Below, piece after piece: positions 15,154 through 15,502 of a stretch of 46,636 nucleotides of DNA. The stretch comes from a bacterium HR34 (GTDB lineage Bacteria; Patescibacteriota; Minisyncoccia; Minisyncoccales; HRBIN34), in NCBI GenBank assembly GCA_002923395.1, contig BEIK01000006.1, forward strand, positions 1-46,636. Direction: 5' to 3'. The position numbers and the translations under genes were made by a program. Under the pieces are notes generated by a model, which worked only from the letters and a program-made list of their open reading frames with translations, was not told the DNA's origin and did no database searches. Position 1 is the first letter of the stretch; each line of letters starts with the position of its first letter.

Positions 15154-15225
15154 GCCCCCGTAGTTCAATGGATAGAACACGGGCCTTCTAAGCCTGAAAT
15201 GCAGGTTCGATTCCTGCCGGGGGCG
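15154..15225 (+). tRNA. tRNA-Arg (anticodon TCT)
   Basis: Cloverleaf with acceptor GCCCCCG/CGGGGGC, D arm GTTC/GAAC, anticodon loop CTTCTAA and T arm GCAGG/CCTGC. CCA is not encoded; the genomic bases after the discriminator are CGCCGAG-like. A dense hairpin cluster begins immediately downstream. Confidence 0.95.
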
Positions 15226-15460
15226 CCGAGCGAAGCGAGGCGAACATGGCAGGTAAGAACCCACAGAGGGGGTCGGGGAGATTGGGTATCTCCCCGTGAA
15301 GGAAAATAGCTCCGACTTAAAGTCGCAGCGCAAGAAACCGTGGGTTTCTTGGAAGCAAACTTAGTTTGCGACAGGTCCGCTTCGTGCCGGAAGCGTCCTA
15401 TCATTCGATAGGGCAGGCCCCGTCATTCGATAGGGTAAACGCCGACGCAAGGGAGGAGCG
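15226..15460 (+). ncRNA. GC-rich hairpin cluster after tRNA-Arg (possible structured RNA or repeat element)
   Basis: This stretch is much more GC-rich than the genome around it and holds at least six consecutive perfect inverted repeats: CGGGGAGAT/ATCTCCCCG (15274-15296), CGACT/AGTCG (15313-15325), AAGAAACC/GGTTTCTT (15332-15350), GCAAAC/GTTTGC (15355-15369), CGCTTC/GAAGCG (15378-15395) and CCTATC/GATAGG (15397-15412). The 13-base sequence TCATTCGATAGGG occurs twice (15401 and 15423). Open frames on the minus strand through here are antisense to the tRNA and lack protein character. A diverged copy of the central part lies after the other tRNA-Arg (28897-29040). Function is unknown; a processed tRNA trailer, regulatory RNA or mobile repeat are all possible. 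Confidence 0.45.
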
Positions 15461-15502
15461 AGTTTATATATTTTATAAAGCAAAACAACTAAAAAATAAC
15501 CT

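Follow-up and report, generated by a model that had tools for sequence, protein, structure and literature searches.

Integrative and conjugative elements (ICEs), phages and genomic islands enter tRNA genes and other conserved genes at their 3' ends. Miniature inverted-repeat transposable elements (MITEs) and the palindromic repeats termed REP (repetitive extragenic palindromic) sequences and BIMEs (bacterial interspersed mosaic elements) are short, non-coding and hairpin-forming, with many copies at gene borders, and the 178-bp repeats of E. coli tyrT (rtT RNA) stand in tandem after a tRNA gene, each unit carrying the 3' end of the preceding tRNA. Casposons have been found beside the 3' ends of tRNA and aEF-2 genes (PMC4046053). 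Here we analyse a stretch of 46,636 nucleotides (nt) from bacterium HR34 (order Minisyncoccales, Patescibacteriota; contig BEIK01000006.1, forward strand; hereafter the window), in which a cluster of hairpins follows a tRNA-Arg(TCT) gene. Judged from its sequence, this cluster is a worn and decayed copy of a dispersed non-coding element and not a private tRNA trailer; an earlier sequence-only reading of the same DNA had already held that a trailer would not explain it. We have hardly any doubt that the element is real, and with moderate confidence we regard it as a non-coding, non-autonomous homing element of Patescibacteria that would restore the gene it enters and re-copy its target by fold-back. 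To our knowledge, none of the kinds of mobile element compared here has a fixed core flanked by inverted and direct copies of the adjacent gene end, and a literature search, thin on subscription journals and without bioRxiv, yielded no description of such an element.

Copies of the element share one order from left to right: a gene edge (segment A followed by spacer B), a segment A' that is the reverse complement of A, the core, and a second copy of A-B. The core is composed of CACAGAGGGGGTC, hairpin 1 with the loop TGGGT, GGAAA, a variable hairpin 2, hairpin 3 and optional further hairpins, and usually ends with GCGAC; its conserved unpaired motifs are GGGGTC, the TGGGT loop and GGAAA. The anatomy was quantified in a pooled set of 127 distinct copies, about half of them from the 60 best-scoring new hits and 122 with enough flank. 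At a local alignment score of at least 12, A' matched the upstream flank of its own copy in 60 of 122 cases, compared with 3 of 244 for the flank of another copy; for the downstream flank the values were 27 of 122 and 1 of 244. Given the better match of A' to the upstream copy, A, B, A' and the core appear to move as one unit. The gene end was directly repeated on both sides of the element in 64 of 122 copies (score of at least 14; control 0 of 244), and at least one of the two features (A' at 10 or above, or the repeat at 14 or above) was present in 91 of 122 copies, compared with 17 of 244 controls. The left ends of the A'-paired segment and of the direct repeat agreed within 3 nt in 43 of 60 measurable copies. 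In 52 of 69 cases the downstream copy was bordered on its left by GCGA, which was present in 161 of 2440 control 18-mers. Both the inverted and the direct copy are therefore defined by a single target point. The direct repeats comprised 14 to 113 aligned nt of gene end among the matches listed (33 of 60 copies). Segment A was entirely different between target genes, and A' varied from copy to copy, following the local gene.

The element resembles gene-end integrative elements in that its targets are conserved gene ends (those of EF-G and tRNA genes, for instance), the gene is left intact and a second end is found on the far side. It departs from them in its core of roughly 80-165 nt, which holds no genes, in a target that differs with each gene, and in the inverted target copy fused to the core. 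With MITEs, REP sequences and BIMEs it shares small size, non-coding hairpins and many copies at gene borders. Unlike MITEs, it has no fixed terminal inverted repeats, A' following the local target instead, and its direct repeats are parts of gene ends of variable length rather than a short constant target duplication. The tandem units carrying tRNA 3' ends recall the tyrT repeats; the element differs from these in being dispersed over many tRNA and protein genes in many genera, and in its conserved hairpins and A'.

In the window, the tRNA-Arg(TCT) gene spans 15154-15225 (Rfam) or 15154-15227 (ARAGORN), and the cluster begins at its 3' end. The GC-rich character ascribed to the cluster was borne out (0.570 for 15226-15460 compared with 0.316 for the window, a value matched by 2 of 1857 sliding 235-nt windows). 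Where six or more perfect inverted repeats had been counted, a strict count of non-overlapping repeats (arm of at least 6, loop of 3-8) gave five, the sixth stem, at 15309/15320, being imperfect with 9 of 10 positions paired; 235-nt windows contain 0.63 such repeats on average, and five are reached by 3 of 929 windows, which include those overlapping the region, and by none of 1000 single-base shuffles. The folding z-score of the sense strand at 15224-15502 was -3.98, with none of 200 shuffles as good. The 13-nt direct repeat reported before, TCATTCGATAGGG, was found at 15401-15413 and 15423-15435. A protein-coding reading was rejected, again in line with the sequence-only reading: of the five open reading frames of at least 30 amino acids that overlap the cluster, the longest (79 amino acids) is antisense and extends into the tRNA gene, and none is gene-like. 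An Rfam scan at the gathering score returned tRNAs only; up to E 10 the core was unmatched, with weak hits on or antisense to tRNAs. The true element is somewhat larger than 15226-15460 and takes in the tRNA 3' end. Its parts, including the match to a covariance model (R1) built from 19 cores, are the following:

15154-15225, forward strand: tRNA-Arg(TCT), the host gene of the insertion (Rfam, ARAGORN).
15202-15225, forward strand: A, upstream copy, the T-arm and 3' acceptor strand of the tRNA, repeated past the core (24-nt direct repeat with 15372-15395, 79%).
15226-15247, forward strand: B, the spacer separating the tRNA end from A' (compared with sites in the own genome).
15248-15261, forward strand: A', imperfect reverse complement of the tRNA T-arm segment (by alignment, reverse complement GGTTCTTACCTGCC versus GGTTCGATTCCTGCC).
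15262-15372, forward strand: core, from CACAG to the terminal GCGAC (R1 match 15260-15358, 97.8 bits).
15274-15296, forward strand: hairpin 1, 9 perfect base pairs, loop TGGGT (inverted repeat, covariation).
15309-15329, forward strand: hairpin 2, variable or absent in other copies (inverted repeat, core alignment).
15331-15351, forward strand: hairpin 3, 9 perfect base pairs (inverted repeat, covariation).
15355-15369, forward strand: hairpin 4, 6 base pairs, adjoining the 3' terminus (inverted repeat).
15368-15372, forward strand: 3' terminus of the element, GCGAC, directly after which the downstream gene-end copy starts (family junction motif GCGA).
15373-15395, forward strand: A, downstream copy, a decayed second tRNA-Arg 3' end (direct repeat).
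15396-15439, forward strand: insert of 44 nt within the decayed downstream copy, holding the 13-nt direct repeats.
15440-15456, forward strand: probable remnant of a second B copy (76% to 15224-15240).

In the own genome (G000; 579 kb, 22 contigs), BLAST gave 10 matches at six sites, each directly after a tRNA gene, namely tRNA-His, three tRNA-Arg and two tRNA-Glu. The sites at tRNA-His, tRNA-Arg(CCT) and tRNA-Glu(TTC) carry full units, every one of them followed by a second 3' end of its own tRNA (T-arm and acceptor strand). Tandem arrays occur at tRNA-Arg(CCT), with a spacing of 163 nt, and at tRNA-Glu(TTC), where the array spans an apparent break between contigs C9 and C14; because the contig ends match, these contigs are probably neighbours, the assembly seeming to be broken within the array at both contig starts. 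A truncated copy follows tRNA-Glu(CTC) and a 49-nt remnant tRNA-Arg(TCG). The spacer B of tRNA-Arg(TCT) recurs near-identically after tRNA-Arg(TCG) (contig C8) and in a related form after tRNA-Arg(CCT) (C2), and much of the spacer of tRNA-Glu(TTC) recurs after tRNA-Glu(CTC). In the window, the second tRNA 3' end has decayed to 79% identity (15372-15395 versus 15202-15225), with 44 nt between it and the probable B remnant. As the downstream end is decayed in tRNA copies such as this one and L020, it is the upstream copy that works as the gene there. Two unlinked sites in this genome share an end point, the base of hairpin 1 immediately behind CACAGAGGGGGTC, and a third continues for a few more bases (L009 1816-1861, the end of the C2 array; L012 ~938-987, C8; L013 1-99, C14); such ends could be scars of precise excision or could mark a point at which breaks are favoured. 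Of the guesses made in the sequence-only reading, a repeat element using tRNA genes as sites came closest, and the six sites of this genome agree with it; it was too narrow for relatives, whose copies lie mostly at protein-gene edges. The proposed recombination hotspot survives in part: tandem arrays and second gene ends are signs of recombination at the sites.

Copies were also found in related genomes, by both of the routes that had been proposed. With the tRNA-His copy as query, BLAST was positive in 8 of 60 genomes, the own included. Within the order, R1 had matches at E <= 1e-4 in 82 of 247 genomes, the own among them, and copy numbers per genome rose to at least 16, a lower bound in that 16 candidates were scored per genome. 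Across the phylum, 22 of 379 sampled genomes were positive at E <= 1e-5, again including the own: 2 from the order and 20 from outside it, of which 9 belong to the class and 11 to the rest of the phylum. Beyond the phylum, one exact degenerate pattern was searched (91 stretches; 80 loci among the matches listed). Among these listed loci many records are named just 'bacterium', and those named specifically are Patescibacteria with one exception, including Staskawicz-, Yanofsky-, Wildermuth-, Kaiser-, Zambryski-, Vogel-, Portnoy-, Nealsonbacteria and others. The exception is an element in a record labelled Euryarchaeota (L227, JADFQH010000057.1), which is probably a mis-binned Patescibacteria contig. 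Viral contigs gave no match to the exact pattern. By these sequence searches, the wider of which used one exact pattern only, the element is known so far from Patescibacteria.

Next we compared the two gene ends that flank the element. In the 44 of 122 copies with a same-strand frame, the codons showed 194 synonymous and 127 non-synonymous differences (pS 0.518, pN 0.084; a few of the 44 frames are doubtful, L100 being antisense to fusA and L011 covering 5 codons), and the stop codon was retained in 20 of 21 cases. Because the differences are mainly synonymous, the gene ends look like orthologues and not like a target duplication that decayed after insertion; they look, in other words, like ends of different lineages. 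For EF-G in genome G189, the two ends differ from each other at 23 of 78 positions, and each differs from other species at 15 to 30; among nine congeners, the downstream copy was closer in five, the upstream copy in one, and three were ties. The repeat of L124 is identical over its first 63 nt and differs in its last codons, a pattern that recombination inside the repeat should produce. A few copies bear on the origin of A'. In L107, the downstream (native) copy reads ...GAAAGCGCTAGCTTTCGACA|AAACTC and the upstream copy ...GCTTTCGACA|TTGTGGG, and TTGTGGG complements CCCACAA at the left edge of A; such a switch would be left by a 3' end that folded back and was then extended to the cut. In L089, L120 and L123, A' continues outward from a terminator-like hairpin. 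From these few clear cases we infer a fold-back origin of A'. The downstream copy of L119 also takes in A' (89 nt, 2 mismatches), so that insertion or recombination took place at a site already bearing a fold-back copy.

The element is found beside a variety of genes. Among 124 copies, the long left-hand frame pointed at the element in 70 and in the opposite direction in 33, was missing in 16 and ambiguous in 5. At least 5 of the 33 away-running cases, the window among them, are tRNA-adjacent, so that up to 28 may target a gene 5' end. Such a target was examined by eye at fusA in L100; a second one, in L086, we take to be dnaX from its start motif. Sixteen of 122 copies follow a tRNA 3' end. 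Pfam analysis of 68 left-hand proteins revealed, among the best 25 of 34 families, ribosomal S9 nine times, EF-G five times and S7 three times, with GAPDH, PGK, S10, L11, peptidase S41 and several others found twice each.

The stems of the core are kept in relatives with compensatory changes, a test that the sequence-only reading had set and that the element passed. In 100 distinct cores, 98.6% of the cells were standard pairs and 281 cells had changed on both sides; the covariation score was 0.434, compared with 0.186 after shuffling and 0.026-0.155 with the partners slid. This strong covariation lends weak support to the earlier guess of a novel structured RNA, against which stands the near-absence of G-U pairs, a better fit to a DNA hairpin. 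G-U occurred in 9 and A-C in 3 of 1689 core stem cells, whereas the acceptor and T stems of 107 tRNAs from the same loci had G-U in 46 of 1278 cells (Fisher p ~1e-9, ignoring relatedness) even with stem offsets chosen for maximal pairing, which lowers the tRNA count; the weight of this result is limited in that the core rows were fitted to the model and many are young. The scarcity of G-U favours, without proving it, a hairpin that acts, or is corrected, as DNA.

Enzymes that might move the element were surveyed in 32 genomes, 16 element-rich (own included) and 16 without an R1 match. RVT_1 (PF00078) was present in 13 genomes without pattern, and absent from G000 and from the 16-copy genomes G172, G017 and G198; Y1_Tnp (PF01797) was present in 17 and absent from the element-rich G000, G172, G017, G069, G070 and G067. 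The TnpB/Cas12f zinc-ribbon was detected in two genomes, Cas1 (PF01867) in two and Transposase_20 (PF02371, IS110-type) in one, in no case the own genome. A tyrosine recombinase (Phage_integrase) was found in 30 genomes, including all 16 element-rich ones; the own genome has a single one, which from its size and ubiquity we read as Xer. These distributions separate the element from several known systems: from casposons by the rarity of Cas1, from REP and IS200-IS605 palindromes by the lack of a Y1 transposase in several element-rich genomes, from IS110/bridge-RNA elements by the rarity of Transposase_20, and from integrative elements by an own genome without Cas1, with one tyrosine recombinase only, and by the lack of a fixed attachment (att) site. 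Group II introns, retrons and diversity-generating retroelements differ from it in that the own genome has no reverse transcriptase, the stems are DNA-like and no Rfam intron matched.

Under the homing interpretation favoured here, the mobile unit would be A-B-A'-core, with the left edge of A as its point of entry into a homologous gene end, much as integrative elements enter tRNA genes. Entry at this point would restore the gene by means of the incoming end and displace the native end downstream. Recognition would depend on homology or base-pairing to A instead of a fixed attachment sequence. When the gene is a new one, the target would fold back at its 3' end and be copied up to the cut, giving a new A', to which the core would then be joined. 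Movement might rely on host strand exchange and replication, possibly with competence-acquired DNA, or on a trans factor. A further version, which we regard as doubtful, is that the element reprograms itself: each new A', in the form of RNA or single-stranded DNA, would direct the element into that gene in other cells. None of the tested families of nucleases, recombinases and reverse transcriptases would take part, and the element would be the natural equivalent of a prime-editing guide able to write its own spacer. If the homing interpretation is true, we would be dealing with a minimal element that targets gene ends and re-targets itself by copying them, in bacteria whose genomes are very small and whose gene exchange is poorly understood; a trans factor acting on the core should exist, or host functions alone suffice. 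The paired gene ends that it leaves at known positions, which look like those of two lineages, would be a direct record of gene exchange.

Several observations weigh against the homing interpretation. Direct repeats at score 14 were lacking in 58 of 122 copies, and 31 of 122 had neither repeat nor A' pairing at the thresholds used; since the best-scoring loci were sampled, even these figures describe the better preserved copies. The left-hand frame is reversed in 33 of 124 copies, up to 28 of them perhaps at 5' gene ends. The native copy was checked at one gene, EF-G of G189, where 16 orthologues read (20 genomes hit) placed the downstream copy closer in 7 cases and the upstream copy in 4, with 5 ties, so that the evidence only leans downstream. 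No mobilising enzyme emerged from the survey: the seven families in 32 genomes fail to separate element-rich from element-free genomes, serine recombinases and DDE transposases lying outside the survey. The tyrosine recombinase was present in 14 of 16 element-free genomes as well, and ComEC, which is needed for DNA uptake, was found in 29 of 32 genomes without discriminating between the groups (14 of 16 element-rich, 15 of 16 element-free). In favour of the interpretation, cores had their closest relative within their own genome in 11.0 of 43 cases (2.6 expected); when other genomes alone were considered, the closest core belonged to the same gene in 2.8 of 26 (0.8 expected). The mean core identities were nonetheless similar: 0.765 for pairs within a genome, 0.778 for pairs at the same gene in different genomes and 0.748 otherwise (p 0.08, 0.05); there are hence signs of spread within genomes and of same-site transfer, neither of them strong. 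The insertion event itself was not observed, and the comparison included no empty site from a near-identical strain. A distant second gene end was searched for 57 copies without a near direct repeat, giving two hits without cargo, one a nearby second element copy and the other 14 nt long. A search for half-cores split by an insert returned no candidate, and was a weak one in which the hairpin 3 expression missed many ordinary copies (59 of 114 flagged).

Other explanations were weighed against the same data. The order of parts resembles that of prime-editing guides and group II intron retrohoming, with a spacer-like A', a scaffold-like core and a primer-site-like A, and an RNA-templated retrohoming could be imagined in which a transcript 5'-A'-core-A-3' uses these segments as spacer, scaffold and primer-binding segment. 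It would account for the A'-core-A order, the common left edge (43 of 60 within 3 nt), the covarying stems and a downstream copy that mostly begins at the fixed core terminus. The patternless RVT_1, absent from the own genome and three 16-copy genomes, the zinc-ribbon in just two genomes and the paucity of G-U pairs nevertheless render it improbable, along with its detailed form, in which a nick in one strand, placed at the left edge of A, would provide the primer for reverse-transcribing the RNA. A miniature integrative element that a tyrosine recombinase moves and that uses A for attachment, comparable to the satellites of ICEs or phages at tRNA genes, would explain why tRNA 3' ends and conserved gene ends, which are classic integration sites, serve as targets, why the gene stays intact with a second orthologous end on the far side, and why all 16 element-rich genomes have the enzyme. 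The own genome has one Xer-sized recombinase only, and A is wholly different between target genes, so that one sequence-specific integrase should not serve them all; integrated ICEs are not known to have an inverted target copy beside a fixed core, and we consider this explanation very unlikely.

The remaining two explanations dispense with a dedicated mode of movement. The cluster could belong to a structured RNA of 3' untranslated regions or tRNA trailers, with a role in processing, stability or termination, spread by recombination because it helps its host gene. The strong covariation, the 70 of 124 copies whose left-hand gene shares their strand, and the host genes, which are conserved and often highly expressed, speak for such an RNA; up to 28 of 124 copies beside the 5' ends of opposite-strand genes, G-U in only 9 of 1689 cells and the lack of an Rfam match to the core up to E 10 speak against it, and the duplicated gene ends require a mobile or recombining origin in any case. 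We hold it to be unlikely. It appears to us still less probable that there is no special mobility at all, and that a hairpin-prone sequence was multiplied by slippage and template switching and spread by ordinary homologous recombination. This would fit the tandem arrays of the own genome and the fold-back copies that resemble template switching (L089, L120, L123, L107), and arm-to-arm correction at the DNA level would also remove G-U and A-C pairs. Not so easily explained are the conserved unpaired motifs and terminus, the R1 matches in 20 sampled genomes outside the order, and up to at least 16 copies in one genome at different genes.

Some copies depart from the common form. A subtype mostly at tRNA genes (L193, L205, L215, L224, L236) has an A' ending in GAACC and a core starting with AGAG or AGAA, and several of its members have a 3' end near GCAGTGAG in place of GCGAC; it is possibly an older, tRNA-specific branch. 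Copies from several genomes (L016, L027, L040, L043) carry a second, G-rich insert (GGGAGGGTGGT-type runs) inside core hairpins, which may be another small element targeting hairpin loops. In the own genome, the palindrome TGTTCCACGTGGAAC, which resembles parS, has three copies (L012 844, 991 and 1121) within 300 nt around the tRNA-Arg(TCG) and tRNA-Pro genes.
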